From NCBI RefSeq assembly GCF_023571765.1, contig NZ_JAMJXC010000004.1, positions 62,001 through 126,000 of the forward strand: a DNA stretch of 64,000 bases, read 5' to 3'. Under the pieces are notes generated by a model. That model searched no databases. It worked only from the letters and a program-made list of their open reading frames with translations, and was not told the DNA's origin. This document shows positions 16,663-32,883 of the stretch, piece after piece. Made by a program: the position numbers and the translations under genes. The DNA is from Xanthobacter aminoxidans. GTDB taxonomy: Bacteria > Pseudomonadota > Alphaproteobacteria > Rhizobiales > Xanthobacteraceae. How positions within the stretch are numbered: position 1 is the first letter of the stretch; each line of letters begins with the position of its first letter.

Positions 16663-17241
16663 CTACCGCAACCGGTCCAGCAGCTTCAGCAGCATGGCGC
16701 GCTCGGCGGCATCCAGCGGCGCCAGCGTCTCTTCGGTGATGGCGAAGGCGTTCACGCTGGCGCGGGCAACCGCCTCCTCGCCGGCGGCGGTCAGCACCGC
16801 CACCAGCAGCCGGCCGTCCTCGGTGTCCGGGCGGGTCTCCACGAAGCCGCGGCGCACGAGGCGGTCCACCACGCCCTTGATGGTGGCGGCATCCATGGCC
16901 GTGAGGCGGCCGAGCAGGTTCTGCGAGCAGGGGCCGGTCTCGGCCAGCTTCGACAGGGCCGCCCACTGGGTCATGGTCAGGTCGTCGCCGATGCGCGCAG
17001 CGAAGATGGCGGCATGGCGCTGGCCCACCTGCCGCAGGATGAAACCCACCTGCTCGTCCAGCACATAGGGCGTGTTCGCCCGCGAGCGGCGCACGGGGCG
17101 GCGCACCTGCATGGGGGGTGTGGATTTGGGCGGTGTGGCTTTGGAGGGCGTGGCTTTCGGGGGCGTGGCATCGGCCACCTCGGGCGTTGCCACCTTCCGG
17201 GGCGCGCGGGGCGTCCGCAGGGCCTTGGGCTCCGACGCCAT
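16663..17241 (-). CDS. MarR-family regulator, probable repressor of nicotinate genes
   Basis: The 192-residue protein has a low-complexity N-terminus (residues about 20-45, repeating PPKATP-like units), then a MarR winged helix: LSKLAETGPCSQNLLGRLTA, and wing region RPDTEDGRLLVAVLT. It is the last gene of the operon that starts with hnr, 3 nt after livF. MarR regulators (NicR, BpsR) control nicotinate degradation in other proteobacteria with 6-hydroxynicotinate as ligand. By position this is the likely repressor acting on the four shared operator sites. Confidence 0.8.
   Translation of the reverse strand: MASEPKALRTPRAPRKVATPEVADATPPKATPSKATPPKSTPPMQVRRPVRRSRANTPYVLDEQVGFILRQVGQRHAAIFAARIGDDLTMTQWAALSKLAETGPCSQNLLGRLTAMDAATIKGVVDRLVRRGFVETRPDTEDGRLLVAVLTAAGEEAVARASVNAFAITEETLAPLDAAERAMLLKLLDRLR
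17117..17176. repeat. 15-bp tandem repeat inside marR
   Basis: Four imperfect 15-bp units (such as GGTGTGGCTTTGGAG and GGCGTGGCTTTCGGG on the plus strand) encode the Ala/Thr/Pro/Pro/Lys repeats of the MarR N-terminus. Such in-frame repeats can change copy number by slippage without frameshift. Confidence 0.75.
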
Positions 17242-17244
17242 GGC

Positions 17245-17949
17245 TCAGACCGCCAGATAGGCGTCGCGGATTTCCGGATTGGCCTCCAGATCCGCGATGG
17301 TGCCGGAAAAGCGGATGCGCCCCTTCTCAATGATGTAGGCGCGATCCGAGATCAGCTTGGCGAAGTGCAAATTCTGCTCGGAGATGACCACCGAAAGCCC
17401 CTCCCCCTTCATGGCGAGGATGGCGTCGGCCATCTGCTCCACGATCTTGGGCGCCAGGCCCTCCGAGGGCTCGTCCAGCAGCACGAGGGAGGGGTTGCCC
17501 ATCAGGGTGCGCCCGATGGTGAGCATCTGCTGCTCGCCGCCGCTCATCTGCCCGCCGGGGCGCTTGCGCATCTCGCCGAGGTTCGGGAACAGCTTGTAGA
17601 GCATGTCCGGCGTCCAGGTGGCGACGCCCGGGCGCGGCGCCTGTCGGCCCACCTCGAAATTCTCCTCCACCGTGAGATGGCTGAAGATGCGCCGGTCCTC
17701 CGGCACATAGCCGAGGCCGCGCCGCACGATCTCGTAGGTTGGCAGGCGCGAGACGTCGGCGCCGTCGAACATCACCGTGCCCGCGCGCTGGGGCACGAGG
17801 CCGACGATGGAGCGGAAGGTCGTGCTCTTGCCCGCCCCGTTGCGGCCGAGCAGCGCCACCACCTCGCCGGCGCCGATCTCGAGGCCCACGTCGTAGAGGA
17901 TATGGGCGGGGCCGTAGTGGCTGTTGAGGTTCGAGACCTGAAGTTTCAT
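17245..17949 (-). CDS. livF: HAAT-type ABC transporter ATP-binding protein
   Basis: A 234-residue LivF-type ATPase: Walker A LLGRNGAGKST, signature MSGGEQQMLTIGRTL, Walker B LVLLDEPSEGLAP. The short form without a C-terminal extension is typical of LivF. The start overlaps the livG stop as ATGA. It works with LivG, the fused LivHM permease and the binding protein upstream. The ligand is inferred as nicotinate or a pyridine acid from operon context, since branched-chain amino acids are the default for the family. Confidence 0.92.
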   Translation of the reverse strand: MKLQVSNLNSHYGPAHILYDVGLEIGAGEVVALLGRNGAGKSTTFRSIVGLVPQRAGTVMFDGADVSRLPTYEIVRRGLGYVPEDRRIFSHLTVEENFEVGRQAPRPGVATWTPDMLYKLFPNLGEMRKRPGGQMSGGEQQMLTIGRTLMGNPSLVLLDEPSEGLAPKIVEQMADAILAMKGEGLSVVISEQNLHFAKLISDRAYIIEKGRIRFSGTIADLEANPEIRDAYLAV

Positions 17950-18728
17950 GCCGCAGTCCCCTCGCGGTGCCGTGCGTCGTAGAGCAGCCCTTCGCCGAGA
18001 TAGATGGCGCGGACTTGCGGGTCGCGCCGCACCTCGGCCGGGGTGCCGCGGGCGATGAGCTGGCCGCGGTTGAGCACCATCACCTCGTCGGCGTGCTCGA
18101 ACACCACGTCCATGTCGTGCTCGGTGAAGAGCACGCCGATGCCCTTGGCGCGGGCGATCTCGGCGGTGAGGCGCATCAGCTCCACCCGCTCGCGCGGCGC
18201 CATGCCGGCGGTGGGCTCATCCATGAGGAGGAGGCGCGGCTCATTGGCCAGCGCCACCGCCAATTCCAAGCGCTTGAGGTCGCCATAGGCCAGCTCGCCG
18301 CACGGCCGCTCCGCCTGCGTGGTGAGGCCGACGAGGGCGAGCAGCGCATCCGCCTCCGCCCGGCAGGCCGCGCCAGCGAAGCCGAACACGCGGGAGATGC
18401 GCCCGTGGAAGGAGAGGAGCGCCACCTGCACGTTCTCGCGCACCGTCATGGAGGCGAAGGTGGCGGTGATCTGGAAGGTACGGCCGACGCCGAGCCGCCA
18501 CACGGCGCGCGGCGGCAGGCCCTTGATGTCCCGGCCCTCGATCAGAACCGTGCCGGCATCGGGCGGGATCTGGCCGTTCAGCATGTTGAAGCAGGTGCTC
18601 TTGCCCGCCCCGTTGGGTCCGATGAGGGCGAGCATCTGCCCCGCTTCCACCGTGAAGGACACGCCCCGCACGGCATGGACGCCGCCATAGGACTTCATCA
18701 GGTCTTTGACTTCGAGCAGCGGGCTCAT
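17946..18728 (-). CDS. livG: HAAT-type ABC transporter ATP-binding protein
   Basis: A 260-residue LivG-type ATPase with Walker A LIGPNGAGKST, signature LAYGDLKRLELAVALA (the LivG form of the LSGGQ loop) and Walker B LLLMDEPTAGM, plus the BCA_ABC_TP_C tail (YLGEGL). I chose ATG at 18728, which shares its A with the permease stop TGA; a GTG one codon earlier is possible. It is the second ATPase of the importer. Confidence 0.92.
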   Translation of the reverse strand: MSPLLEVKDLMKSYGGVHAVRGVSFTVEAGQMLALIGPNGAGKSTCFNMLNGQIPPDAGTVLIEGRDIKGLPPRAVWRLGVGRTFQITATFASMTVRENVQVALLSFHGRISRVFGFAGAACRAEADALLALVGLTTQAERPCGELAYGDLKRLELAVALANEPRLLLMDEPTAGMAPRERVELMRLTAEIARAKGIGVLFTEHDMDVVFEHADEVMVLNRGQLIARGTPAEVRRDPQVRAIYLGEGLLYDARHREGTAA

Positions 18729-20611
18729 CACGCGGCCTCAGCTTTGGTGGCGCCAACGGTTGCGCCGTTGCCCTTGCGGGGCCAGCGGTGGCGCAGATCC
18801 TCGATGAAGCCCACGACCCCCTTGGGAAACGCGAGCACGATGACGACGATGACGCCGCCCAGCACCAGCTTGGAGAGATCGGTCTGGCTCATCAGCCAGA
18901 TGGCCAGCGCCTTGTAGAGCACCGCACCCACCACCGCGCCGGAGACCGTCTCCACGCCGCCGAGCAGCACCATCACGAGCCCGTCCACCGAGGTGGGAAT
19001 GGCCATGTAGTCCGGAAACACCGAGCCCTTGAGGAAGGCGAACAGCGCACCCGCCAGCCCGGCGAAGGTGCCGGCGACGATGAAGGCGGCCCACTGCATC
19101 CGCTGCCGGTTGAGGCCGATGGCCTCCGAGCGCAGCGCGCTGTCACGCACCGCCCTCAGCCCATAGCCGAACGGCGAGAACACCAGCATCCTGAGCACGC
19201 CGACACCCACCACCGCGATGCCCAGCGCCAGCCAGAAGAAGCCCGCCGGTCGCGAGGCCCACGTCGCCGGCCAGATGCCGAGCAGGCCGTTGTCGCCGCC
19301 GGTCACGTCCACCCACTGGAAGGCGATGGACCAGGCGATCTGCGCGAAGGCCAGCGTTAGCATGGCGAAATAGACGCCCGAGAGCCGCACGCAGAACCAG
19401 CCGAACAGCACCGCCCCGGCGAGGCCCAGGAGCGGCCCGACGATGAGCGCCGCCTCCATGGGCGCGCCCATGTATTTGACGAGGAAGGCCGCGCCATATG
19501 CGCCGAGGCCGAAATAGGCGGCATGGCCGAACGAGGCGAGGCCGCCCACCGTCATCATGAAATGCAGGCTCGCCGCGAACAGCACGTAGATGAGGATTTC
19601 CGCGCCCACCGTGAGGGCATAATTGCCGAGGAAGAAGGGCAGCGCAGCCACCGCGACCACCACCAGCGCCACGCCGGCCCGCTCAACTTGCGTGAACGGG
19701 CGCCAGGGCCGGATGGTGAGGCCGGCGGCGGCGCGGGGGGCGCTTTCCGGCTTGCCGAACAGGCCCCAGGGCCGCACCACCAGAACCACCGCCATCACCA
19801 GGAACACGGTGATGAGCGAGATCTGCGGCAGGATGAGAATGCCGAAGGCGTTCAGCTCCGCGACGATGATGGCCGCCACGAACGCCCCGAACACCGATCC
19901 GAGGCCGCCGATGACCACCACCACGAACACTTCCACGATGATGGAGAGGTCCATGGCATGGGTCACAGTGGTGCGGGGGATCTGCAGCGCGCCACCCAGC
20001 GCGGCGAGGAAAACGCCCAGCGCGAACACGCCGGTGAACAGCCATTTCTGGTTCACGCCCAGCGCCGCGACCATCTCGCGGTCCTGCGTCGCGGCGCGCA
20101 CCAGCACGCCCCACCGGGTTTTGTGGAACAGCAGCCACAGGATGCCGAGCACCACCGGGCCGAGGGTCATCATGAACAGGTCGTAGGTCGGCACCATGCG
20201 GCCGAACAGGCTGATGGCGCCGGTGAAGCCGGGGGCGCGCGGGCCGAGCAGGTCTTCCGGCCCCCAGATCACCACCACGAGGTCCTGCACCATCAGCGTC
20301 ACGCCGAAGGTGGCGAGGAGCTGGAAGAGTTCGGGCGCCTGATAGATGCGCCGCAGCAGCACCATCTCCATCAGCGCGCCGAGCAAAGCGACGATGATCG
20401 CCGCGGCGACGATGGCGCCCCAGAAGCCGAACGGGCCGGCAAAGCGCGTCGTCAGCGTGTAGGCCACATAGGCGCCCAGCATGTAGAAGGCGCCATGGGC
20501 GAAGTTCACGATGCGCGTGACGCCGAAGATGATCGACAGCCCCGACGCCACCAGAAACAGCGACGCGGCGCTGGCGAGCCCGCTCAGGGCCTGGACCAGA
20601 AGAAATTCCAC
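18728..20611 (-). CDS. Fused LivH-LivM ABC transporter permease
   Basis: This 627-residue protein joins both HAAT permeases in one chain. Residues about 1-290 are LivH-like (SGLSIIFGVTRIVNFAHGAF, then the EAA-like region) and about 320-615 are LivM-like (GGLASFGHAAYFGLGAYGAA, and AVRDSALRSEAIGLN). I chose GTG at 20611 (VEFLLVQ), because the frame upstream is a Pro/Arg-rich non-homologous run. Single-chain LivHM fusions are known but less common than two genes. The gene is followed directly by livG. Confidence 0.88.
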   Translation of the reverse strand: MEFLLVQALSGLASAASLFLVASGLSIIFGVTRIVNFAHGAFYMLGAYVAYTLTTRFAGPFGFWGAIVAAAIIVALLGALMEMVLLRRIYQAPELFQLLATFGVTLMVQDLVVVIWGPEDLLGPRAPGFTGAISLFGRMVPTYDLFMMTLGPVVLGILWLLFHKTRWGVLVRAATQDREMVAALGVNQKWLFTGVFALGVFLAALGGALQIPRTTVTHAMDLSIIVEVFVVVVIGGLGSVFGAFVAAIIVAELNAFGILILPQISLITVFLVMAVVLVVRPWGLFGKPESAPRAAAGLTIRPWRPFTQVERAGVALVVVAVAALPFFLGNYALTVGAEILIYVLFAASLHFMMTVGGLASFGHAAYFGLGAYGAAFLVKYMGAPMEAALIVGPLLGLAGAVLFGWFCVRLSGVYFAMLTLAFAQIAWSIAFQWVDVTGGDNGLLGIWPATWASRPAGFFWLALGIAVVGVGVLRMLVFSPFGYGLRAVRDSALRSEAIGLNRQRMQWAAFIVAGTFAGLAGALFAFLKGSVFPDYMAIPTSVDGLVMVLLGGVETVSGAVVGAVLYKALAIWLMSQTDLSKLVLGGVIVVIVLAFPKGVVGFIEDLRHRWPRKGNGATVGATKAEAA

Positions 20612-20921
20612 GGCTTCAGCCTCTCGTTCACCTGCTGGAAGTTTTGATCTTTTTGGGCCACCCGCCGTCGAGGGCGGGGGCCGAATGCGGGGGCGGCTGA
20701 CTGGCGCCGCCCGCGCTTTGTTCAAGCATTCGGTCCGTCATGCCCGGGCTTGTCCCGGGCATCCACGTCGGGCCGCAGGAATAATCCTGCGAAGGAAATA
20801 CCCGGCCGGACCACGTGGATGGCCGGAACCCGCATGTTTGCGGGTTCCGTTTTTGAGGGCGGAAGTCGGCAACAGCCGACTTCCGGGACAAGCCCGGCCA
20901 TGACGGGCGGAAAAATCCGCC
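20612..20921. other. Intercistronic gap holding repeat copy B
   Basis: This 310-bp gap inside the transporter operon has no gene. Most of it is the palindromic repeat at 20737-20904. The remainder next to the permease start (20612-20736) is GC-rich and unremarkable apart from a GAGAGG ribosome site. Confidence 0.7.
20737..20904. repeat. Palindromic intergenic repeat, copy B
   Basis: Begins GTCATGCCCGGGCTTGTCC and ends GGACAAGCCCGGCCATGAC, which are near-inverse ends. A 9-bp hairpin GAAGTCGGC-AACA-GCCGACTTC lies before the right end. It starts 17 nt after the end of the substrate-binding gene. The shared parts with copy A include the AACAGCCGACTTCC core. Confidence 0.85.
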
Positions 20922-22118
20922 TCAGTTCGCCGGACGCAGCTTCGCGGCCTCAGCCTCGGGCGGCAGGTAGTCGGCGCCGGGCTTGAACTGGAAGTTCACC
21001 ATGATGCCCTGCCCGTCCTTCTGCGAGGTCGTGCCGATATAGGCGCCCATGGTCGACTGGTGGTCGGCCGCGCGGTAGACCACATCGCCGAAGGGAGTGG
21101 AGACCTTGAGGTTCTTCATCGCCTTGAGAAGGCCGGCGGTGGAGTAGTCGTCGGTCGCCTTCAGCGCCGCGGCGATGGACTTCACCGTGGAGTAGCCGAC
21201 GATGGAGCCGAGGCGCGGATAGTCCTTGTGGAGCTGCTGGTAGGCGTCGAGGAAGGCCTGATGCTCGGTGGTCTTGATGCCGTACCAGGGATAGCCGGTG
21301 ACGATCCAGCCCTCGGGGGTCTCGGTCTTCAGCGGGTCGAGATATTCCGGCTCGCCGGTGAGATAGCTGACCACCACGCGGTTCTTGAAGATGCCGCGGG
21401 TGTTGCCCTCACGCACCAGCTTCACGAGGTCGCCGGCGAAGGTGGCGTTGAGGATGGCCTCGGGATTGGCGGCGTCGATGGCCTGGAGCACCGGGCCGGC
21501 GTCGATCTTGTTCAGCGGCGGCCACTGCTCGGCCACGAACTCCACGTCCGGCTTGCGCTTCTTCAGGAGTTCCTTGAACACCGCGACGAAGGACTGGCCG
21601 AACTCGTAGTTGGGGGCGATGGTCGCCCAGCGCTTGGCCGGGAGCTTCGCCGCCTCTTCCGCCAGCATGGCGGCCTGCATGTAGTTCGAGGTGCGCAGGC
21701 GGAAGGTGTAGTCGTTGCCCTTGGACCAGACGAGCGCGTCGGTGAGCGGCTCGGCGGCCAGGTACATCACCTGCTTCTGCTTGGCGAAGTCGGCGAGCGC
21801 GAGGCCGACATTGGAGAGGAAGCCGCCGGCGATCATCACAACGCCGTCGCGCGAGACCAGCTCGTTGGCGGCGGTGAGCGCATCGGCCGGCTTGCCGCCA
21901 TCGTCCTTGGAGATGATGACGAGCTTCTTGCCCTTGATGCCGCCGGCATCGTTCACTTCCTTCAGCGCCAGATCCATCCCCTTGCGATAGGGATCGAGGA
22001 AGGCGGGCAGCGCCGAATAGGAATTGATTTCGCCTACCTTGATCTCGCCCTGCTGCGCCCGCGCCCCGCCTGCGGCGAGGAGGAGAGCGGCGAGGGATGC
22101 CGCGACCAGCTTCTTCAT
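20922..22118 (-). CDS. HAAT-type ABC transporter substrate-binding protein
   Basis: A 398-residue type I periplasmic binding protein of the LivJ/AmiC class, with signal peptide MKKLVAASLAALLLAAGGARA. ATG at 22118 has GGGGA six nt upstream; ATGs at 22124 and 22145 are less well placed. Motifs include VNDAGGIKGKKLVIISKDDG and the late GDVVYRAADHQ typical of the amide/aromatic-acid subgroup. The operon context (hnr, DUF1185 pair) suggests nicotinate or a related carboxylated ring as ligand (inferred). Confidence 0.85.
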   Translation of the reverse strand: MKKLVAASLAALLLAAGGARAQQGEIKVGEINSYSALPAFLDPYRKGMDLALKEVNDAGGIKGKKLVIISKDDGGKPADALTAANELVSRDGVVMIAGGFLSNVGLALADFAKQKQVMYLAAEPLTDALVWSKGNDYTFRLRTSNYMQAAMLAEEAAKLPAKRWATIAPNYEFGQSFVAVFKELLKKRKPDVEFVAEQWPPLNKIDAGPVLQAIDAANPEAILNATFAGDLVKLVREGNTRGIFKNRVVVSYLTGEPEYLDPLKTETPEGWIVTGYPWYGIKTTEHQAFLDAYQQLHKDYPRLGSIVGYSTVKSIAAALKATDDYSTAGLLKAMKNLKVSTPFGDVVYRAADHQSTMGAYIGTTSQKDGQGIMVNFQFKPGADYLPPEAEAAKLRPAN

Positions 22119-22170
22119 GTCCATTCCCCTTTTATGATGTCCCATGAACCGTCCGCGCGCGGGGCGTGGC

Positions 22171-22755
22171 CTATCTCAGCCCGTCCTCGCCCTTGATCTC
22201 GTCCTTCTTCAGCCCGCCGACGCGCGGCAGCGGACGTCCGGAATCCGTGACCGCCACAGCAACCACGATCTCGTTGGCGCGCGGGGCATCCGACACGCTC
22301 ACGATCATGCCGTCGAAATGGCTGCGCACGAAGGCCGCATCCTTATGGCCGAGCGGGATGTCGAGATCCGCCCCGAGGCCGCCCCGCCGCTTGGATGAGG
22401 GGATGAGCGCCGCACCCTTGCCGAGCACCGCGCGCACCGGCGCCCCCATCTTGGGGTGCAGCAGGGCCGCAGCGTGCTCCAGCTCGCCATTCTCGCCCAC
22501 CAGCGCCGCCTTGCCGTAGCTCTCGGCGGAAGGCCCCTCGATGCCGAGGGCCTCCACCGCCTTCTGCGTCAGAAGCCCGCCCAGCTCCTCGCCCATGGCG
22601 ATGAGGTCGGAAAGGTCTTCCACATAACGGCCGGCAAACGGATTCTCGATCACCGCGATGGCCGCCGCCCGCCGGGTGGGCGGGGAGACGGGGCGGCCCA
22701 TCTCGGTCTGCGTCTCTTCGACGATGGTGACGATCTTGCGGATGTTGGCGCTCAT
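22171..22755 (-). CDS. DUF1185 (AA_synth) family protein, second of a pair
   Basis: A 194-residue protein of the PF06684 'amino acid synthesis' family, whose biochemical function is not established. It has ENPFAGRYVEDLSDLI (about 38-53), a VRSHFDGMIVSVSDAPRANE stretch, and a conserved end KGEDGLR. It is a paralogue of the neighbour at 22752 with the same length and end. Start ATG overlaps the neighbour's stop (ATGA), so the two are co-translated and may form one complex. An unknown step of nicotinate degradation is the likely role, by position only. Confidence 0.82.
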   Translation of the reverse strand: MSANIRKIVTIVEETQTEMGRPVSPPTRRAAAIAVIENPFAGRYVEDLSDLIAMGEELGGLLTQKAVEALGIEGPSAESYGKAALVGENGELEHAAALLHPKMGAPVRAVLGKGAALIPSSKRRGGLGADLDIPLGHKDAAFVRSHFDGMIVSVSDAPRANEIVVAVAVTDSGRPLPRVGGLKKDEIKGEDGLR

Positions 22756-23336
22756 CGCAGGCCGTCCTCGCCCTTGATGGCTTCCGCCGCGAGGCCGCCG
22801 ACGCGGGCATGGACGCGCGGGCCGCAGGTCATGACCAGCACGAGGGCGATCTCGTCGGCCTTGGGGGCATCGGACACGCCCACTTCCATGGCGTCGAAAT
22901 GCGAGCGCACGTAGGAGGCGTTCACATGGGTCACCGGCACGTCGAGCCGCGTGCCCGGCCCGCCCACCTTCTTGGTGGAGGGCACGATGGCCTTGGCATC
23001 GCCCAGCGCCTCGCGCATGGCGTAGCCGCCCGGCACGTGCCAGAGAGCGCCGTGCTCGATCTCGCCGGCGGCGCCGACGATGGCGCCCTTGCCGTAGCCG
23101 TCGATCGCCTTGGCGTCGCCGCCGAGGGCCGCGAGCAGTTCCTTGGCCATGGCCGCGCCCAGCGGCTTCAGGTCTTCCATGAAGCCGGCGATGTCTTCCA
23201 CATAGCGGCCGGCGAACGGGTTCTCGATCACCGTCACGATGGCGCCGCGCTTGCGCGGGGTGGCTGCGGCGGGGCCGCCCTCGTGGAAGATCTCCTCCAG
23301 AATGCGGACCTGCTTGCGGATCTTGACCTCAGGCAT
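22752..23336 (-). CDS. DUF1185 (AA_synth) family protein, first of a pair
   Basis: A 194-residue PF06684 protein. Shared with its neighbour are ENPFAGRYVEDIAGFM, the YGKGAIVG block, YVRSHFDAMEVGVSDAPKAD and the GEDGLR end. It also carries a GGPGTRLDVPVTHVNASYVR stretch. I chose ATG at 23336, which overlaps the end of the UPF0280 gene by 8 nt. Tight overlaps on both sides show operon membership with hnr. The family name is historical and should not be taken as function. Confidence 0.83.
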   Translation of the reverse strand: MPEVKIRKQVRILEEIFHEGGPAAATPRKRGAIVTVIENPFAGRYVEDIAGFMEDLKPLGAAMAKELLAALGGDAKAIDGYGKGAIVGAAGEIEHGALWHVPGGYAMREALGDAKAIVPSTKKVGGPGTRLDVPVTHVNASYVRSHFDAMEVGVSDAPKADEIALVLVMTCGPRVHARVGGLAAEAIKGEDGLR

Positions 23337-24303
23337 GGGCGACGCCTCTTTCTTGTTCTGCGGCAAGGGAAATCGGACGGGATGACAGGGGTGCATCCCC
23401 CACCGGACAGGTGGAGACGCTGGCGCCCTGCAGATGCAGCGCGGCGGCGGTGATGAGGCCGCGCGCCACCAGCGCGCCGGCGCAGGCGAGGCCTTCGGCC
23501 AGCGCCTCGTCCCGCTCGGCGGGTGTCAGTTCAGGCACGTGGCGCGTCACTTTCAGCAGGCCGAGGTCGCTGTCGGGCAGCACCTCGCGCGCCGGGACGC
23601 GGACGATACCGGGATGGCCCGGCAGGTTCACCGCATTGGCGATGACGGTCGCCGCCGCATCCGCCGCCGCCGCGCTGGGCGCGAGCACGGTCACGGCATC
23701 GGCGATGCCGAGGGAAAAGCTGCGCCCGCGCCAGCCCGAGGTGGCGATGCCGCGCACCGGGCCGTCCGCCGTGATGCGGGCTGAACCGACCACGCGGGGG
23801 CGGTCCGGCCGGTCCACGATGCCCGCCACCAGCTCGGCGCCGGGCGAGAGATAGAGCGCGATGTCGCCGCCATTGTTGACGAAGGCGCGGGTGAGGCCGG
23901 GCCGCACCATGGCGGCGAGCACCTCCTCCGCCACGGCGCCTGCGACGGCGGCCATGGGGGTGATGAAACCAGCGCGCGCATGGGGCGACACCGCCGCCCA
24001 CATGCGCCGCGCCACCGGACCCTGAAGGGGGCAGGGCCCGGGATGGGCAGGCCGGCGGAGCAGGGAGAGTTCGCCGCACAACGTGTCCAGAAGGCCTGCG
24101 AGGCGTTCGGTCGCCGCGCCATAGGCGGCGGCCACCACATCCGCCGGGCCATCGGCCTCGATAACGAGGTCGATGGGGCCGTCGTTCAGATGCAGCCGAC
24201 GCCCGTCCGCCAGAAGCCCCGCCTGCGGCAGGCGCCGCTGCACCGGCATCGCGGGCGTCGCGACGCGGGGCGCTGGAGCGGGGATGTCGGCGGGGCGCAG
24301 CAT
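23329..24303 (-). CDS. UPF0280 (ApbE-like) protein, candidate flavin transferase
   Basis: A 324-residue protein of the UPF0280 family, whose fold belongs to the ApbE-like superfamily. Seen are AFVNNGGDIALYL (about 187-199), the ApbE-type NxGGD motif, GIATSGWRGRSFSLGIADAV (about 231-250) and a DAAATVIANAV helix, matching the conserved core of FMN transferases. It starts 4 nt after hnr. Because the Eubacterium hnr product is reported to carry covalent flavin, flavinylating the reductase is an attractive role. That link is inference and no standard ApbE target motif is obvious in the reductase. Confidence 0.8.
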   Translation of the reverse strand: MLRPADIPAPAPRVATPAMPVQRRLPQAGLLADGRRLHLNDGPIDLVIEADGPADVVAAAYGAATERLAGLLDTLCGELSLLRRPAHPGPCPLQGPVARRMWAAVSPHARAGFITPMAAVAGAVAEEVLAAMVRPGLTRAFVNNGGDIALYLSPGAELVAGIVDRPDRPRVVGSARITADGPVRGIATSGWRGRSFSLGIADAVTVLAPSAAAADAAATVIANAVNLPGHPGIVRVPAREVLPDSDLGLLKVTRHVPELTPAERDEALAEGLACAGALVARGLITAAALHLQGASVSTCPVGDAPLSSRPISLAAEQERGVAHA

Positions 24304-24307
24304 GGTC

Positions 24308-25828: not shown

Positions 25829-25846
25829 TCATATGTACACTAATGA
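25829..25846 (-). promoter_or_regulatory. Operator-like site 1, hnr promoter
   Basis: TCATATGTACACTAATGA is a TCAT-N10-ATGA dyad inside a larger imperfect palindrome (25826-25851). On the minus strand it reads TCATTAGTGTACATATGA and matches sites 2-4. It overlaps a promoter-like pair on the minus strand (TTGACA at 25871-25866 and TTTCAT 17 nt later), about 40 nt before the hnr start. Confidence 0.7.
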
Positions 25847-26010
25847 AAATCGCGTCGGCCCCGAGTGTCAAGCACAAGGAACGGGCAGGCCGCACGAAGA
25901 GGCAGCATTGCTGTCATTCTTTTGCACTTGCAGCATTTTTTCGCCGTCTCCGCGCTTGGGGCGGCGGCCGGGAGCCTGTGTTTTGAGCGTCCCGCGCGCT
26001 TGACGCTCGA

Positions 26011-26029
26011 TCATTAGTATAGAAACAAT
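26011..26029 (+). promoter_or_regulatory. Operator-like site 2, nicAB promoter
   Basis: TCATTAGTATAGAAACAAT shares the TCATnnGT...AnA layout of sites 1, 3 and 4, and its first half is identical to the minus-strand reading of site 1. It lies about 65 nt upstream of nicA, just after a TTGACG. It and site 1 flank the 160-bp divergent promoter region. Confidence 0.65.
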
Positions 26030-26094
26030 CCACTCTGTGGCGGGCCGGTCCCGGTCCCGGTTTCTTGCGGCAAAGGCTGAGCGGTTCCTTCGAG

Positions 26095-26583
26095 ATGTCC
26101 GCCCCCATCCTACTCCAGGTCAATGGCGAAACCCACGCCTTCGCGTTGCCGCGCGAGACGCCGCTGATCTACGTGCTGCGCAACGACCTCGGGCTGAACG
26201 GCCCCAAGTTCGGCTGCGGCCTCGGGGAGTGTGGCGCCTGCACGGTGCTGATGGATGGCCGCGCCACGCGCTCCTGCGTCACCACGCTGGGCACGGCCGA
26301 GGGGCGCGCGGTGACGACGCTGGAGGGGCTCGCGACGCAGGGCACGCTGCACCCGGTGCAAGCGGCCTTCATCGCCGAGCAGGCGGCCCAGTGCGGCTAT
26401 TGTCTCAACGGCATGATCATGACCACGGTCGCTTTCCTCGCGCGCAATCCCTCCCCGACCGAGGCAGAGGCCCGCGCGGCGCTGCGCTACAACCTGTGCC
26501 GTTGCGGGACGCATGTGGAGATCCTGCGCGCGGTCCTGCGCGCCGCTGCCGGCTCCGACGAGAGCATGGAGGCCCAGCCGTGA
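26095..26583 (+). CDS. nicA: Nicotinate hydroxylase small (2x[2Fe-2S]) subunit
   Basis: A 162-residue iron-sulfur subunit of the xanthine-dehydrogenase superfamily. The plant-type ferredoxin domain has GCGLGECGACTVLMDG plus a later Cys (SCVTT). The helical domain has QCGYCLNGMIM and LCRCGTH. This is the IorA/NicA layout. It passes electrons from the molybdenum centre to the haem domains of the partner. ATG at 26095 begins the canonical sequence. Its stop overlaps the GTG of nicB (GTGA). Confidence 0.9.
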   Translation: MSAPILLQVNGETHAFALPRETPLIYVLRNDLGLNGPKFGCGLGECGACTVLMDGRATRSCVTTLGTAEGRAVTTLEGLATQGTLHPVQAAFIAEQAAQCGYCLNGMIMTTVAFLARNPSPTEAEARAALRYNLCRCGTHVEILRAVLRAAAGSDESMEAQP

Positions 26584-29500
26584 GCGAGCCGCGGCCCGAT
26601 CCCGCGGCGCTGCTCGCCGCCACCGGCAATCTCGCCATCCTGCGGCCGGCGCAGGTGGTGCACGGCCTCGTGCCGAGCGCGGCGCCGAAGGACGGTGCCC
26701 TCGACCTGTTCCTGCTGGTGGACGATACCGGCACCGTCACCGCCTTCAACGGCCACGTGGACCTCGGCACCGGCATCCGCACGGCGCTGGCCCAGATCGT
26801 CGCCGAGGAGCTGGATGTGGCGCTCGATCGCGTCACCATGGTGCTCGGCCATACCGGCGTCGCGCCGAACCAGGGCGGCACCATCGCCTCCGATTCCATC
26901 CAGGTCTCGGCCCGCCCGCTGCGCCACGCGGCGGCACAGGCCCGCGCCCATCTGGTGGCGCTCGCGGCCAAGGCATTGGGCATTCCGGCGGACGAGCTGG
27001 AGGTTGAGGAGGGCATCGTCCGCCCCAGGGACGGGCGTAACACCGGCCTCTCCTATGCAGACCTGCTCAAGGGCCGCGCCGACCGTCTGATGCTCCATCA
27101 GGAAACCGCGGTGAAGCCGGCGAGCGAGCACCGCATCGTCGGCCGCCGCGTGCCGCGGGTGGATATTCCAGCCAAGGCGACGGGCACCTTCACCTATGTC
27201 CACGACGTGCGCGTGCCGGGCATGCTGCACGGCCGCGTGGTGCGCCCGCCCTATGCCGGCATCGATGCCGGCCCGTTCGTGGGCAAGAGCCTGATCCGGG
27301 TGGACGAGCACTCCGTCGCCCATGTTCCGGGCGTGGTAGCGGTCGTCACCATGGGCGACTTCATCGGCGTCGTCGCCGAGCGCGAGGAGCAGGCGGCCGA
27401 GGCGGCCCGCGTGCTGAAGACCGAATGGCGCGACACCCCTGCCCTGCCCGACCTCTCCCGCACCGAGGAAGCCCTGCGCGGGGCCGAGAAGGCCAAGACC
27501 CGCCTCCTCCACGAGCAGGGCAACCTCGACACCGCCCGCGCAGACGCCGCGCAGGTGCTGGAGGCGACCTATGTCTGGCCCTACCAGATGCACGCCTCCA
27601 TCGGCCCCTCCTGCGCCGTCGCCGACGTGCGCGAGGACAGCGCGACCATCTGGGCGGGCACGCAGAACCCCTATTGGCTGCGCACCGACATCTCCCTGCT
27701 GCTCGGCCTGCCTGAGGAAGACATCGAGATCGTCCGCTTCGAGGCGGCGGGCTGCTATGGCCGCAACTGCGCGGATGATGTGGCGGCCGACGCCGCCTTG
27801 CTCTCCCGCGCCGTAGGGCGGCCGGTGCGGGTGCAACTCACCCGCGAGCAGGAGCACGCCTGGGAGCCCAAGGGCGCCGGCCAGCTCATGGAGGTGAAGG
27901 GCGGCATCAACGCCGACGGCACGCCCGCTTTCTACGACTTCCTCACCCGCTACCCCTCCAACGCCGCCGTCACGCTGGCGCTGCTGCTCACCGGCCGCGT
28001 GCCGGCGGACAATCCCGTCTACGAGATGGGCGACCGCACGGCGATCCCACCCTATGCCTATGACGTGATGCGCGTGGCGGTGGATGACGTGGCGCCCATC
28101 GTGCGTGCCTCCTGGCTGCGCGGCGTCTCGGCGCTGCCCAACAGCTTTGCCCACGAGAGCTATGTGGATGAGCTGGCCGCCGCCGCCGGTGTCGATCCGG
28201 TGGATTATCGCCTGCGCCACCTCCACGACCCGCGCGCCGTGGACCTCGTGAAGGCCACCGCCGAGCGCGCCGGCTGGCAGAAGCGCACCGGTCCCCGGCA
28301 GGAGGTGGTGGAGGGCGACATCGTGCGCGGGCAGGGCTTCGCCTATGCCCTCTATGTCCACTCCAAATTCCCCGGCTACGGCGCCGCATGGTCCGCCTGG
28401 GTGGCGGATGTGGAGGTGAACACCGCGACCGGCGACGTGGCGGTGAAGCGCGTCACCGTGGGCCAGGATTCCGGGCTGATGATCAACCCGGCCGGCATCG
28501 AGCACCAGATCCACGGCAACGTCATCCAGTCCACCTCCCGCGCGCTCAAGGAGCAGGTGACCTTCGACGAGCAGGCGGTGACAAGCCGGGAGTGGGGCGC
28601 CTACCCCATCCTCACCTTCCCGGAAGTGCCCGTCATCAACGTGGTGCTGATGCCCCGGCCGGACGATCCGCCTTTGGGCTCGGGCGAATCCGCCTCGGTG
28701 CCCAGCGCGGCGGCCATCGCCAATGCCATCTTCGACGCCACCGGCGTGCGCCTGCGCGAACCGCCCTTCACGCCCGACCGCGTGCGCGCGGCTTTGGCCG
28801 GCGAGGCGCCGCCCCGCCCGGTGAAGGAGAAGACGCGCAAGCCGTGGCTCGCCATGGCGGGCGCCGCGCTGGCCGGTGCCTTGGGCATGGCGACGCTGGC
28901 GCTGCCCATTCGCGGCGCCATCGCGCCCATCGCCCCGCCTGATCCTTCGGCTTTCTCCGCCGACATGATCGCCCGCGGCAAGGTGCTGGCTGCGCTGGGG
29001 GATTGTGCGGTCTGCCATACGGCGAACGGCGGCATCGCCAATGCCGGCGGACAGCCGCTGCACACGCCCTTCGGCACGGTCTATTCCACCAATCTGACGC
29101 CGGATGCTGAGACGGGCATCGGCACATGGTCCTATGCCGCCTTCGAGCGCGCCATGCGCGAGGGCATCGGGCGGGACGGGCGGCACCTCTACCCCGCCTT
29201 CCCCTACACCGCCTTCAGCCGCATCAGCGATGCCGACATGCAGGCGCTTTACGCCTTCCTCATGTCCCAGCCGGCGGTGACGGCGGCACCGCCCGAAAAC
29301 CGGATGACCTTCCCCTTCAATATCCGCCCGCTGATGGCCGGCTGGAACATGCTGTTCCACCGCCCCGGCCAGCTTCAGGCGGAGCCGGCGCAGTCTCCGC
29401 AGTGGAACCGGGGGCGCTACCTCGTGGAAGGCCTCGGCCATTGCGGCGCGTGCCATACGCCGCGCAATGCGCTGGCGGCAGAAAAGGGCGGCGCGGCCTA

Positions 29501-30128
29501 CCTTGCCGGCGGCTTCGCCGATGGCTGGGAGGCGCCGGCACTGACGGAGCTGTCCAAGGCGCCCATTCCGTGGACCGAGGACGAGCTGTTCACCTATCTG
29601 CGCACCGGCTTCTCCCGCTTCCACGGCACCGCCGCCGGCCCCATGGCGCCGGTGGTGCATGCGCTGTCCGAAGTGCCGGATGCCGACGTGCGCGCCATGG
29701 CGGTCTATCTCGCCTCGCTTTCGGGCCCCGCCATCGCCGATCCGGTCGCGGCGGCGGCGACGTTGGAAGCCAAGGCCGAAGCCTCTCTCCGCCCCATGGA
29801 CACGGTGGGCGGCCGCCTCTTCGCCGGCGCCTGCGCCGCCTGCCATGCGCCGGAGGGGCCGACCCTGTTCGGCGCGCGGCCGGCGCTGGCGCTGAATACC
29901 AATGTCCATGCGGCGCGGCCCGACAATCTCATCCGCGTCATCCTCGAAGGCATCCCCAAGCCCGCCGTCCCGGAGCTGGGCGACATGCCCGCCTTCCGCG
30001 ACAGCCTCAATGATGCGCAGGTGGCCGACCTCGTCCGCTACATGCGCGCCAAGTTCGCGCCGGATGCTCCCGCATGGGAGGGGCTTGAGGGCACGGTGGC
30101 GCGGCTGAGGGCGGCGCCGACGCATTAG
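26580..30128 (+). CDS. nicB: Nicotinate hydroxylase large subunit fused to cytochrome c domains
   Basis: A 1182-residue fusion. Residues about 1-740 form the molybdenum-cofactor part of the isoquinoline/nicotinate hydroxylase type, with Moco-contact regions EAAGCYGRNCADDVAADAAL and a Glu in PLGSGESASVPSAAA as probable catalytic base. A hydrophobic segment (about 752-775) follows, then three c-type haem motifs: CAVCH (about 809), CGACH (about 954), CAACH (about 1084). Pseudomonas putida NicB has the same plan and size. It hydroxylates nicotinate to 6-hydroxynicotinate with cytochrome as acceptor. Substrate is assigned from hnr and ena next door; other N-heterocycles are possible. Confidence 0.88.
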   Translation: MSEPRPDPAALLAATGNLAILRPAQVVHGLVPSAAPKDGALDLFLLVDDTGTVTAFNGHVDLGTGIRTALAQIVAEELDVALDRVTMVLGHTGVAPNQGGTIASDSIQVSARPLRHAAAQARAHLVALAAKALGIPADELEVEEGIVRPRDGRNTGLSYADLLKGRADRLMLHQETAVKPASEHRIVGRRVPRVDIPAKATGTFTYVHDVRVPGMLHGRVVRPPYAGIDAGPFVGKSLIRVDEHSVAHVPGVVAVVTMGDFIGVVAEREEQAAEAARVLKTEWRDTPALPDLSRTEEALRGAEKAKTRLLHEQGNLDTARADAAQVLEATYVWPYQMHASIGPSCAVADVREDSATIWAGTQNPYWLRTDISLLLGLPEEDIEIVRFEAAGCYGRNCADDVAADAALLSRAVGRPVRVQLTREQEHAWEPKGAGQLMEVKGGINADGTPAFYDFLTRYPSNAAVTLALLLTGRVPADNPVYEMGDRTAIPPYAYDVMRVAVDDVAPIVRASWLRGVSALPNSFAHESYVDELAAAAGVDPVDYRLRHLHDPRAVDLVKATAERAGWQKRTGPRQEVVEGDIVRGQGFAYALYVHSKFPGYGAAWSAWVADVEVNTATGDVAVKRVTVGQDSGLMINPAGIEHQIHGNVIQSTSRALKEQVTFDEQAVTSREWGAYPILTFPEVPVINVVLMPRPDDPPLGSGESASVPSAAAIANAIFDATGVRLREPPFTPDRVRAALAGEAPPRPVKEKTRKPWLAMAGAALAGALGMATLALPIRGAIAPIAPPDPSAFSADMIARGKVLAALGDCAVCHTANGGIANAGGQPLHTPFGTVYSTNLTPDAETGIGTWSYAAFERAMREGIGRDGRHLYPAFPYTAFSRISDADMQALYAFLMSQPAVTAAPPENRMTFPFNIRPLMAGWNMLFHRPGQLQAEPAQSPQWNRGRYLVEGLGHCGACHTPRNALAAEKGGAAYLAGGFADGWEAPALTELSKAPIPWTEDELFTYLRTGFSRFHGTAAGPMAPVVHALSEVPDADVRAMAVYLASLSGPAIADPVAAAATLEAKAEASLRPMDTVGGRLFAGACAACHAPEGPTLFGARPALALNTNVHAARPDNLIRVILEGIPKPAVPELGDMPAFRDSLNDAQVADLVRYMRAKFAPDAPAWEGLEGTVARLRAAPTH

Positions 30129-30170
30129 GGTCGGGCGGGTTGGACGGCGACGTTACTCTATCTCTCCGCC

Positions 30171-30278
30171 GTCATGCCCGGGCTTGTCCCGGGCATCCAC
30201 GTCGTTCCGATGGCCCAATGATCCCAGAGAGGTTCCCAGCCGTTCCGCGTGGATGGCCGGGACAAGCCCGGCCATGAC
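30171..30278. repeat. Palindromic intergenic repeat, copy C (short form)
   Basis: Begins GTCATGCCCGGGCTTGTCC and ends GGACAAGCCCGGCCATGAC. It is about 108 bp, without the AACAGCCGACTTC hairpin of copies A and B, but with the same near-inverse ends and a central CCACGT/CGCGTGG pair. It begins 43 nt after the nicB stop. Confidence 0.8.
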
Positions 30279-30419
30279 GACGGGGCAGTTGGCCCCCGCG
30301 ATGACCTTGCCCGTCATCAGCCTCCCCTCCCCTGCCCAAAATATCCCGCCTCGCTGCCCAAAAGACCCGCATCCTGCCCGTGACAAGCCGTTGACAGCCT
30401 TCGCGGCCCGACTCTATTT

Positions 30420-30438
30420 TCATTTGTACACAAACAAT
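30420..30438 (+). promoter_or_regulatory. Operator-like site 3, fdxA-fpr promoter
   Basis: TCATTTGTACACAAACAAT contains the near-palindrome TTTGTACACAAA and matches sites 1, 2 and 4. It begins at the last T of the -10 (TATTTT, 30415-30420; -35 TTGACA at 30391), so a bound repressor would cover the start point. Confidence 0.75.
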
Positions 30439-30455
30439 ATGCCGAGGGCGTTCCC

Positions 30456-30788
30456 ATGGCCTATGTCGTCACCGAGGGCTGCATCCGCTGCACCTACATG
30501 GATTGCGTCGCGGTGTGCCCGGTGGATTGCTTCTATGCCGGCGCGAACATGCTGGTGATCCACCCGGACGAGTGCATCGACTGCGGCGTCTGCGAGCCGG
30601 AATGCCCGGCGGCGGCCATCTTCCCGGACAGCGACCCGCGCGCCGCCGAATGGGCCGCCCTCAATGCCCAATACGCGGCAGTGTGGCCCAACATCACCGA
30701 GAAGGGTCCGCCGCCGACCGATGCCGATGCCTGGAAGGACACGCCGGACAAGCGCGCCCTCCTCTCCGCCGATCCTGCCAGCCTCTAG
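30456..30788 (+). CDS. fdxA: 7Fe ferredoxin FdxA
   Basis: A 110-residue FdxA-type ferredoxin with [3Fe-4S] and [4Fe-4S] clusters. Cys9, Cys17, Cys21 and the C40-x2-C43-x2-C46-x3-C50-P set are present, and the C-terminal extension is of normal length. It lies 18 nt before the ferredoxin reductase gene, under operator site 3. The likely job is low-potential electron supply to 6-hydroxynicotinate reductase; FdxA proteins also serve elsewhere, so the assignment is contextual. Confidence 0.92.
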
Positions 30789-30806
30789 AACCGCCCCGAG
30801 ACCACC

Positions 30807-31580
30807 ATGAGCAATTTCTTCGAGGAGCAGGTGCTCAGCGTCCACCACTGGACCGATCGCCTGTTCAGCTTCACCACCACCCGCGATCCCGGCTTCCGCT
30901 TCCGCACCGGCGAATTCACCATGATCGGCCTGAAGGTGGACGGCCGTCCGCTGCTGCGCGCCTATTCGGTGGTGAGCCCGGCCTGGGCGGAGACGCTGGA
31001 ATTCTTCTCCATCAAGGTGCCCAACGGCCCCCTCACCTCCCGCCTCCAGCACATCCAGGTGGGCGACGCCATCACGGTGGGCCGCAAGGCCACCGGCACG
31101 CTGGTGATGGACAATCTTCTGCCCGGCAAGAACCTCTATCTCCTCGGCACGGGCACCGGCCTTGCGCCCTTCCTCTCGGTGATCCGCGATCCCGAGACCT
31201 ACGAGCGCTTCGAGAAGGTGGTGCTGGTGCACGGCTGCCGGCATGTGGCCGACCTCGCCTACGAGGATCTGATCACCAAGGAACTGCCGGCCCACGAATT
31301 CCTCGGCGAGGAGATCGCCGCCAAGCTCCTCTATTACCCGACCGTGACGCGCGAACCCTTCCGCAATACGGGCCGCATCTCCACCCTGCTGGAGAGCGGC
31401 AAGCTCTGCGCGGATGTGGGCCTGCCGCCGCTGGATGCCGCTGCCGACCGGGTGATGATCTGCGGCTCGCCGGCCATGATGGTGGACCTCAAGACGCTGC
31501 TGGAATCCCGCGGCTTCACCGAGGGCTCGGGCAGCGAGCCCGGTCATTTCGTGATCGAAAAGGCTTTCGCCGAGCGGTGA
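30807..31580 (+). CDS. fpr: Ferredoxin-NADP(+) reductase
   Basis: A 257-residue FAD protein of the bacterial Fpr subclass. The FAD site is LLRAYSVVSPAW (RxYS, about residues 51-62), the nucleotide site is LLGTGTGLAPFLSVIRDP, and the C-terminus VIEKAFAER resembles the bacterial FPR tail. It should reduce FdxA with NADPH. Pairing with fdxA in a transcript with the nicotinate operator suggests the NADPH-Fpr-FdxA chain feeds Hnr. Confidence 0.92.
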   Translation: MSNFFEEQVLSVHHWTDRLFSFTTTRDPGFRFRTGEFTMIGLKVDGRPLLRAYSVVSPAWAETLEFFSIKVPNGPLTSRLQHIQVGDAITVGRKATGTLVMDNLLPGKNLYLLGTGTGLAPFLSVIRDPETYERFEKVVLVHGCRHVADLAYEDLITKELPAHEFLGEEIAAKLLYYPTVTREPFRNTGRISTLLESGKLCADVGLPPLDAAADRVMICGSPAMMVDLKTLLESRGFTEGSGSEPGHFVIEKAFAER

Positions 31581-31626
31581 AATCCGCCCCGCGCCCGGTT
31601 TTCAGGGGCGTGGAGCGAGCGTAATC

Positions 31627-31644
31627 TCATATGCCTACAAACAG
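31627..31644 (+). promoter_or_regulatory. Operator-like site 4, enamidase promoter
   Basis: TCATATGCCTACAAACAG matches the other three sites. As with site 3 it begins at the last base of a -10-like TAATCT (31622-31627), which lies 17 nt after TTTTCA (31599). Position relative to the enamidase start (31684) fits repression. Confidence 0.65.
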
Positions 31645-31683
31645 AAAGGCGCGCGTCGCCGCGCCCCCTCCGGAGACGAGAGC

Positions 31684-32883
31684 ATGGCCCACGACGCGCC
31701 AACCGGTCCCGCCGGCCCCACCAAGCTGGTGATCCGCAATATCGGCCTCCTCCTCAGCGGCGACCTGACGAAGCCCATTCTGGACGCCGACACGGTGGTG
31801 GCGCTGGACGGGCGCATCACCGCCATTGGCCGCGAGAAGGACGTGGACACCGAGGGCGCGACCACCCTCATCGACGCCAACGGCACCACCCTCACCCCCG
31901 GCCTCATCGACAGCCACGTCCACCCCGTGGCGGGCGACTGGACGCCCCGGCAGAGCCAGATCAACTGGATCGATTCCTCCCTCCACGGCGGCGTCACCAC
32001 CATGATCTCCGCCGGTGAGGTGCATTATCCCGGCCGCGCCCGCGACGTGGTGGGGGTGAAGGCCCTCGCCATCACCGCCCAGCGCGCGTTTTCGGCCTTC
32101 CGCCCATCGGGCGTGAAGGTCCATGCAGGTGCCCCCGTCATCGAGAACGAGATGGTGGAGGACGATTTCAAGGAGCTGGCCGCCGCCGGCGTGAAGCTGC
32201 TCGGCGAGGTCGGCCTCGGCGGCGTGAAGGATGGCCCCACCGCCCGCAAGATGGTGGGATGGGCGCGCAAGTACGGCATCCAGTCCACCATCCACACCGG
32301 CGGCCCCTCCATCCCCGGCTCCGGCCTCATCGACAAGGACGTGGTGCTGGAAGCCGACACGGACGTGGTGGGCCATATCAACGGCGGCCACACCGCGCTG
32401 CCGGACAACCAGATCCGCTGCATCTGCGAGGGCTGCAAGCGCGGCCTCGAGATCGTCCATAACGGCAACGAGCGCTCGGCCCTCTACACGCTGCGTCTCG
32501 CCCGCGAACTGGGAGAACTCCAGCGCGTCATCCTCGGCACGGATGGGCCGGCCGGCTCCGGCGTGCAGCCGCTCGGTATCCTGCGCATGGTGTCCATGCT
32601 CTCCTCCCTCGGCGAACTGCCGGCCGAAGAGGCCTTCTGCCTCGCCACCGGCAACACGGCACGGATGCGGGCGCTCGATTCCGGCCTGATCGAAGTGGGA
32701 CGCGCGGCGGATTTCGTGCTGATGGACAAGGCGCAGCATTCCCCCGGCACCACGCTGCTCGACAGCGTGCGCCTCGGCGACCTGCCGGGCGTTTGCATGA
32801 CCATCATCGACGGCATCGTGCGCACCCAGCGCTCGCGCAACACGCCGCCCGCCACGCGCATGCCCATTGTCGTGAGAGGCTGA
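31684..32883 (+). CDS. ena: Enamidase (amidohydrolase opening tetrahydro-6-oxonicotinate)
   Basis: A 399-residue amidohydrolase-superfamily protein. Metal ligands are His78 and His80 in DSHVHP, then Glu175 (LLGEVG), His204 (TIHTGG), His231 (VGHINGG) and Asp287 (LGTDGPAG). E. barkeri enamidase is a metal amidohydrolase that hydrolyses 1,4,5,6-tetrahydro-6-oxonicotinate to ammonia and 2-formylglutarate; length and ligand pattern fit. Location beside hnr, fdxA-fpr and nicAB supports the role, though generic amidohydrolase cannot be excluded by sequence alone. Confidence 0.85.
   Translation: MAHDAPTGPAGPTKLVIRNIGLLLSGDLTKPILDADTVVALDGRITAIGREKDVDTEGATTLIDANGTTLTPGLIDSHVHPVAGDWTPRQSQINWIDSSLHGGVTTMISAGEVHYPGRARDVVGVKALAITAQRAFSAFRPSGVKVHAGAPVIENEMVEDDFKELAAAGVKLLGEVGLGGVKDGPTARKMVGWARKYGIQSTIHTGGPSIPGSGLIDKDVVLEADTDVVGHINGGHTALPDNQIRCICEGCKRGLEIVHNGNERSALYTLRLARELGELQRVILGTDGPAGSGVQPLGILRMVSMLSSLGELPAEEAFCLATGNTARMRALDSGLIEVGRAADFVLMDKAQHSPGTTLLDSVRLGDLPGVCMTIIDGIVRTQRSRNTPPATRMPIVVRG

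Follow-up and report, generated by a model that had tools for sequence, protein, structure and literature searches.

A conserved gene cluster for predicted nicotinate ring reduction in Xanthobacter aminoxidans, its putative regulon and its companion proteins

The gene cluster examined here is built around hnr, the gene of a candidate 6-hydroxynicotinate reductase (Hnr), and occupies positions 16663 to 32883 of a 64,000-nucleotide stretch of Xanthobacter aminoxidans DNA from contig NZ_JAMJXC010000004.1. This whole stretch is called the window. Gene calling and profile scans (Pfam, NCBIfam) were performed on the 64-kb window, which is part of a genome of 5.8 Mb. The gene list of a first-pass annotation (nicA-nicB, fdxA-fpr, an enamidase gene and a minus-strand operon) was recovered with the same boundaries. 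The features are listed below.

16663..17241, minus strand: MarR-family regulator, last gene of the hnr operon, candidate operator reader (PF01047/PF12802 over cut-off)
17245..17949, minus strand: HAAT importer ATPase, LivF-like (profile scans)
17946..18728, minus strand: HAAT importer ATPase, LivG-like (profile scans)
18728..20611, minus strand: fused HAAT permease, LivH/UrtB-like plus LivM/UrtC-like (PF02653 in two stretches; UrtB and UrtC models below cut-off)
20922..22124, minus strand: HAAT periplasmic binding protein, candidate nicotinate binder (PF13458)
22171..22755, minus strand: AA_synth/DUF1185 protein no. 1, AAs1 (PF06684 over cut-off; 2QTP, E 3.7e-84, 69% identical)
22752..23336, minus strand: AA_synth/DUF1185 protein no. 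2, AAs2, start uncertain and possibly at 23396 (PF06684 over cut-off)
23329..24303, minus strand: UPF0280/COG2122 protein of the ApbE superfamily, proposed Hnr maturase (NF003322, 408.8 bits, cut-off 290)
24308..25789, minus strand: Hnr, 6-hydroxynicotinate reductase candidate, 493 aa (alignments; identity via PMC3511419)
25827..25848, strand not assigned: operator O1, 22-bp imperfect palindrome before the hnr operon (motif searches)
26010..26021, plus strand: partial operator O2 before nicA (12-mer with 1 mismatch)
26095..26583, plus strand: NicA-like [2Fe-2S] subunit (PF01799, PF00111)
26580..30128, plus strand: NicB-like molybdopterin subunit with a fused triple cytochrome c region (PF02738, PF20256, PF00034 in three stretches, PF13442)
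30418..30439, strand not assigned: operator O3 before fdxA, overlapping a promoter-like site at 30391-30420 (motif searches)
30456..30788, plus strand: FdxA ferredoxin, proposed electron carrier to Hnr (NF045490 over cut-off)
30807..31580, plus strand: Fpr-like ferredoxin-NADP reductase (NF008178, E 1e-50, 172.3 bits, under the cut-off of 390)
31684..32883, plus strand: enamidase, Ena (2VUN, E 8.4e-110, residues 13-393)

The minus-strand genes hnr, UPF0280, AAs2 and AAs1 are separated by a 4-nt gap and then by short overlaps, which suggests that they are translationally coupled. On the plus strand, nicA-nicB is followed by a 327-base gap and then by fdxA-fpr-ena. The hydroxylase genes had the NicAB-type layout, with a subunit for two [2Fe-2S] clusters, a molybdenum cofactor (MoCo) subunit with fused cytochromes c, and no adjoining FAD subunit. 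Three CxxCH motifs were counted by eye in the NicB-like translation, and its cytochrome part matched 8gy3_A. Residues 13-393 of the enamidase aligned with residues 2-382 of 2VUN, nearly the full length, within the amidohydrolase superfamily, and its HVH, GEVGLG, HTGG, HINGG and GTD/GND blocks matched those of 2VUN in an alignment judged by eye. The HxH, E, H, H and D of the two proteins are presumably the metal-binding residues. An hnr-like reductase besides hnr had also been annotated at first; the whole genome gave a single Hnr match, and a second Hnr in the window or the genome was ruled out.

Nicotinate fermentation by Eubacterium barkeri was reportedly described by Alhapel in 2006. Like the E. 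barkeri pathway, the gene set of the window would lead from nicotinate to 6-hydroxynicotinate, ring reduction and an enamidase, but the hydroxylase here is of the cytochrome-linked NicAB type, whereas that of E. barkeri is the FAD- and selenium-containing nicotinate dehydrogenase (NDH). The hydroxylase resembles NicAB of Pseudomonas putida KT2440 in its 2Fe-2S subunit and its MoCo subunit fused to c-type cytochromes. In contrast to P. putida KT2440, where the hydroxylation product is oxidized further, the product would be reduced here.

To place the cluster among relatives, genome contigs were scanned for hnr loci, and of at least 592 confirmed stretches the 80 most like that of the window were kept; all counts of named loci (L numbers) use these 80. 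In the matching of genes, hits covering less than 30% of the query and weaker overlapping hits were dropped. The phylum sample comprised 398 genomes, and the best first-look candidates of each were scored (three for Hnr and for the CapB-like protein, five for UPF0280). Hnr was present in 29 of 100 genomes of the same family and in 32 of the 398 phylum genomes, and the hnr cluster is common, not exotic. The window Hnr was 97 and 99% identical to those of two genomes of the same genus, 86% to that of Xanthobacter oligotrophicus 29k, and 76-80% to those of the named Afipia and Bradyrhizobium loci. X. oligotrophicus (L050) carried the entire block in the same gene order, and the cluster of the window is therefore not a chance assembly. 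A MarR-like match was found in 58 named loci and a LivF-like ATPase match in 53; the transporter counts include paralogues. In addition, Hnr proteins 72-76% identical to that of the window lay on contigs of metagenome bins labelled Acidobacteria (L084, L090, L092, L096, L101, L108 and L113), by transfer or misbinning. In genome G115 (C1:2969817-2971258), Hnr appeared as two overlapping matches, suggesting a frameshift or an assembly error.

The cluster has been described before. PMC3511419 shows it in four alphaproteobacteria, namely Azorhizobium caulinodans ORS571, Bradyrhizobium japonicum USDA110, R. palustris HaA2 and strain SG-6C, and states that SG-6C degrades nicotinate and 6-hydroxynicotinate as carbon source. 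As in that description, the genes of the first three steps, an ABC transporter and proteins of unknown function form one conserved cluster, with reduction via 1,4,5,6-tetrahydro-6-oxonicotinate (THON). It differs in that two cluster proteins are left unexplained there, whereas UPF0280 and two DUF1185 proteins stand here, in a Xanthobacter-type order with fdxA-fpr-ena behind nicAB. In PMC9304392, E. barkeri and Azorhizobium are described as reducing the ring in this way and opening it by hydrolysis. Thus, the nicotinate ring-reduction cluster is not new, and the window adds a genus to a known pathway.

The hydroxylase genes varied among the named loci. A FAD-binding subunit was seen near hnr in L052, L098, L106, L109, L118 and L128, and a MoCo protein like xanthine dehydrogenase (XDH) in L104, L111, L116, L120 and L128, each identified from one scanned cluster member. 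In these loci the hydroxylase module appears to have been swapped, mostly in place of a close cytochrome-fused NicB.

The operator O1 was unchanged in five aligned Xanthobacter-type loci. A search of the 64-kb window with the 22-mer and up to three mismatches gave sites only before hnr and fdxA, against an expectation of 0.00. The shorter 12-mer form added the partial copy before nicA (3 matches against 0.27 expected; 1 of 100 shuffles reached 3), and O2 was not recovered with the full palindrome. With a 20-mer and up to three mismatches, the window genome held the hnr and fdxA sites and one on contig C58. All three sister genomes had the hnr site and a second one upstream of ena. With the reversed pattern as control, the number of sites per strand was 0 in G000 (the window genome), 1 in G073, 0 in G094 and 3 in G041. 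Across the 80 named loci, the relaxed palindrome (up to five mismatches) had 57 sites in 43 loci, compared with 1 site in one mononucleotide shuffle per locus; 47 of the 57 preceded a gene for Hnr, NicA, Ena, Fpr, FdxA or MarR, and the other 10 preceded no such gene. Given this distribution, Fpr and the enamidase are very probably co-regulated with Hnr. Since a near-unique palindromic operator precedes both hnr and fdxA-fpr-ena, the two units were taken as one regulon, and the MarR protein of the cluster is the candidate reader. Through the operator, a ferredoxin reductase that would otherwise look generic is linked to ring reduction.

The gene identities, the synteny, the co-occurrence, the distribution of the operator and the ApbE-like fold were observed directly. 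From sequence and genomic context we infer the enzyme activities, the importer substrate, the electron route, the operator reader and the roles of UPF0280 and DUF1185. The HAAT importer would take up nicotinate or 6-hydroxynicotinate, and NicAB would hydroxylate nicotinate, passing electrons via the fused cytochromes c to respiration. Hnr would reduce 6-hydroxynicotinate to THON with electrons flowing from NADPH through Fpr and ferredoxin (FdxA here), and the enamidase would open THON to 2-formylglutarate and ammonia. Both promoters may be controlled by the MarR protein at the TTTCATWWGTRYACWWATGAAA-type operator. UPF0280 is proposed to mature Hnr, most likely its flavin, and the target of the paired DUF1185 proteins may be a late intermediate (the enamine or semialdehyde) or Hnr itself. 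With good confidence, on the strength of the homology of the enamidase to 2VUN, the NicA/NicB architecture, the clustering in 80 loci and the operator common to hnr and fdxA-fpr-ena, the cluster is predicted to be the regulon of a reductive nicotinate pathway from nicotinate to 2-formylglutarate in an aerobic-type alphaproteobacterium. The same set, with import and regulation included, had been proposed in the first-pass annotation, and the homology, the conserved clustering and the common operator support it. The first-pass annotation made no mention of the common operator, of the close tie between UPF0280 and Hnr or of the substitute for the enamidase in relatives. A search for conserved neighbours outside the window gene set found no obvious glutarate-pathway enzyme among 19 scanned representatives of 40 listed clusters, the other 21 being unscanned and the downstream genes not being searched for genome-wide.

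Several results weigh against this assignment. The window Hnr had no family model or structural match in the Pfam, NCBIfam and PDB searches, and its AlphaFold model was poor (mean pLDDT 68.3); Foldseek with this model gave no match at E <= 0.001. At E up to 10, Pfam returned weak GCV_T_C matches only, in all 14 Hnr members (best E 0.0025), which were not used. The name Hnr was given because the SG-6C homologue is 42% identical to E. barkeri Hnr, according to PMC3511419, and because of the cluster context. Among the 80 named loci, FdxA was seen in 4 and an Fpr-like match in 32, and no operator was found in 37 at up to five mismatches. Moreover, the extra C58 site recurred in the sister genome G073. 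The sister genome G094 had no fdxA, and its second operator directly preceded fpr; fpr-ena, and not fdxA, is therefore the constant part. It is also conceivable, but very improbable, that a different substituted pyridine is the true substrate of the cluster and nicotinate a side substrate. Substrates are generally known to vary among MoCo hydroxylases of this family, and a different, XDH-like hydroxylase type occurs in other hnr loci. However, SG-6C, with the same cluster, degrades nicotinate and 6-hydroxynicotinate (PMC3511419), the enamidase is close to the E. barkeri enzyme, and 15 of the 80 loci have near hnr a conserved gene from a cluster whose one scanned member is nicotinate phosphoribosyltransferase. 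The nicotinate pathway remains the preferred assignment.

UPF0280 was a nearly constant companion of hnr. It was found in 79 of the 80 named loci, usually less than 100 bases from hnr (exceptions: L103, 8.2 kb; L087, 322 bases; L112, 163 bases), and in the remaining locus, L088 from Acidisphaera, a match lay on another contig. Among the 398 genomes, the 32 with UPF0280 over the cut-off were exactly the 32 with Hnr, and two others matched below it; the Fisher value of this co-occurrence was 6e-48, a figure that ignores shared ancestry. The AlphaFold model of UPF0280 was good (mean pLDDT 90.5, pTM 0.87). Its top Foldseek match was the D. vulgaris structure 2O34 (E 4.9e-10, TM on query 0.50), followed by FmnB and ApbE flavin transferases (best E 2.7e-5, prob 1.00). 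Profile comparison with ApbE by hhalign gave a probability of 86.4 and an E of 4.6e-6 for that one comparison. Like the flavin transferases FmnB (7ESB) and ApbE (5MGY), UPF0280 has the ApbE fold, and its TSG and ADAxxT motifs align with the ApbE stretches holding the catalytic Ser and Asp; S189 and D215 were invariant in a 33-sequence alignment. Six of the 10 Hnr-positive genomes searched for ApbE had none over the cut-off, and an ordinary ApbE is therefore not the general flavinylator of Hnr. In three genomes, the ApbE Pfam model matched the position of UPF0280 next to hnr, though weakly and under its cut-off. On account of the co-occurrence, the ApbE-like fold and the missing ApbE, a role in cofactor maturation, most likely of the flavin, is proposed for UPF0280 as a dedicated maturase of Hnr, and we give this proposal an even chance.

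A number of features of both proteins speak against flavin maturation. The catalytic triad of ApbE is Ser-His-Asp (PMC12052999); UPF0280 keeps the Ser and Asp, whereas the profile comparison showed that the invariant His and the DPxTG loop of ApbE are absent, and it was therefore not filed as ApbE. The TM on query to ApbE-type chains was 0.23-0.45 (16 chains, E <= 0.001), and according to PMC5764234 the similarity stops short of the flavin-binding region of ApbE. On the side of Hnr, the ApbE target motif DxxS/TGAS/T, and even S/TGAS/T, occurred in 0 of 81 sequences, and an invariant DDHITGV has a loose similarity only to this motif. The flavin of E. barkeri Hnr is covalent, and nothing seen here extends this to the proteobacterial Hnr. 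E. barkeri Hnr also contains one [2Fe-2S] and two [4Fe-4S] clusters, which the definition of the reaction does not require; unlike it, the window Hnr has 9 Cys, too few for that set. Cys 18, 21, 25, 35, 228 and 363 were never replaced in both alignments, with gaps at 18 and 21 in 7 of 81 sequences. Residue 125 was Cys in 79 of 81 sequences and Ala in the window and X. oligotrophicus, and a Cys is therefore probably not essential there.

It is somewhat unlikely, but less so than the other alternatives considered here, that UPF0280, rather than maturing a flavin, carries sulfur or donates persulfide to Hnr or to its Fe-S cluster. According to PMC5764234 and PMC12068725, homocysteine synthesis in D. 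vulgaris requires COG2122 together with DUF39 and NIL/ferredoxin proteins, and either sulfur trafficking or a persulfide modification has been proposed. The lack of the catalytic His in UPF0280 and of the target motif in Hnr would fit such a role, as would the matches of the UPF0280 model, below cut-off, in M. jannaschii and M. acetivorans. On the other hand, ring reduction would require no sulfur donation beyond general Fe-S assembly, and S189 and D215 are retained at the ApbE positions. The two systems are alike in pairing a UPF0280 protein with a ferredoxin-linked enzyme, but the partner and the chemistry differ from those in PMC5764234. As to a conceivable distant kinship of Hnr with DUF39/COG1900, suggested by motifs, PF01837 (DUF39) had no match in the 14 Hnr members and was absent from the 200 phylum genomes searched. 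Maturation of Hnr, most likely of its flavin, is still favored here.

At least one DUF1185 copy was found in 75 of the 80 named loci. Among the 79 loci with UPF0280, 35 had two copies, 39 had one and 5 had none; the loci without DUF1185 were L051, L105 and L112, plus L096 and L098, whose contigs end. The identity of the solved protein SPO0826 (2QTP) was 66-84% with 72 hnr-linked AAs1 proteins (median 72%), 40-47% with 36 AAs2 proteins, 39% with 3BYQ and 37% with the one unlinked DUF1185 copy compared, which places it in the AAs1 clade. In PMC2954203, the amino-acid role of DUF1185 is derived from similarity in fold and from branched-chain amino-acid (HAAT-type) genes in the vicinity, those next to SPO0826 among them. 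Because such HAAT-type genes belong to the hnr cluster here, the 'amino acid synthesis' name is probably misleading and reflects the transporter genes of this cluster. PMC7913881 places DUF1185 relatives in coumarin and trigonelline breakdown and reports unsuccessful efforts to detect an effect of the one from coumarin breakdown. We would guess at a role at the ring-opened enamine or semialdehyde stage. The window genome also has a third DUF1185 gene, in a locus (L158, contig C19, about 5374-10332) that may be another operon for ring degradation; its neighbours there are genes for an aldehyde dehydrogenase and for enol-lactonase-like, Fe-alcohol-dehydrogenase-like and GlnQ-type ABC proteins.

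In relatives, the enamidase was not universal. Orthologues were called at E below 1e-150 for the enamidase and below 1e-250 for the CapB-like protein, with the Hydantoinase-B/CapB-like protein of Rhizobium rhizogenes as query. Among 57 Hnr-positive genomes, 42 had the enamidase and 16 the CapB-like protein: 40 had the enamidase only, 14 CapB only, two had both (G219, G289), and one, the 90% complete genome G059, had neither. Close CapB-like homologues were 65-83% identical and the others listed 42-44%. Of the 32 Hnr genomes among the 398, 18 had the enamidase, 16 the Hydantoinase A/B pair and 2 both, and none was without either. CapA/CapB-like genes lay behind the hnr operon in seven named loci (L110, L114, L118, L121, L122, L124 and L126; CapB in six of them), and the enamidase was seen in none of the seven. 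An operator-like site with 3-5 mismatches was present at or just before the called capA start in six of them, L118 being the exception; the control at up to five mismatches gave 0 of 400 shuffled windows and 18 of 400 unshuffled locus windows, which hold real operators. The pair resembles caprolactamase CapAB (PMC8453981) in being a Hydantoinase A/B pair, but scores far under the caprolactamase NCBIfam cut-offs (488 of 1000 and 339.6 of 1000 bits), and it was therefore filed only as Hydantoinase A/B.

From this distribution, the Hydantoinase A/B pair is likely an ATP-dependent replacement for the enamidase, and, although it lies outside the window, it supports THON as the shared intermediate. 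That the pair has another job, its anti-correlation with the enamidase reflecting shared ancestry only, is improbable. Most of its carriers form one branch of the Hnr tree, and in about half of the 16 genomes the pair and hnr are on different contigs or over 15 kb apart. Nevertheless, in the tree of 46 of the 57 genomes, which has several long branches, CapB-type genomes fell in two separate places. CapB-like matches at E <= 1e-200 occurred in 0 of 366 Hnr-negative genomes (at most three candidates per genome scored), each Hnr genome of the sample had the enamidase or the pair, and the capA start carried the operator in six of seven loci. Replacement of the enamidase is thus the reading retained for the pair.

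Around the cluster, a dispersed palindromic repeat, CGTCATGCCCGGGCTTGTCCCGGGCATCCACGT, was found at 20736-20768, 30170-30202 and 30247-30279, in two of the three larger intergenic gaps. An 11-bp hairpin at 20824-20849, in the gap that separates the permease gene from that of the binding protein, may have an attenuating effect on the transporter genes. No Rfam family was found within positions 13000-37000 of the window. The oxyR-ahpF-ahpC genes (13092-16359) adjoin the cluster; AhpC stood beside hnr in one of the 80 named loci, that of X. oligotrophicus.

Taken jointly, UPF0280/COG2122 could be an ApbE relative lacking the His that inserts or attaches the flavin of reductases dependent on ferredoxin. 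Besides Hnr, this would by extension apply to the DUF39 system in the homocysteine synthesis of sulfate reducers and methanogens. A family of Hydantoinase A/B enzymes could in addition be an ATP-dependent THON lactamase replacing the enamidase in Rhizobium-type and other genomes. This combined view is tentative, and its chance of being right in full falls short of even. No published link between UPF0280 and Hnr or between CapAB and THON was found in a literature search that covered few subscription papers. The companions of the cluster matter more than the cluster itself. The exact co-occurrence of Hnr and UPF0280 offers a context outside sulfur assimilation for finding the function of COG2122. 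Moreover, if its proposed role is true, the Hydantoinase A/B pair would represent a second way, dependent on ATP, of carrying out one catabolic step.

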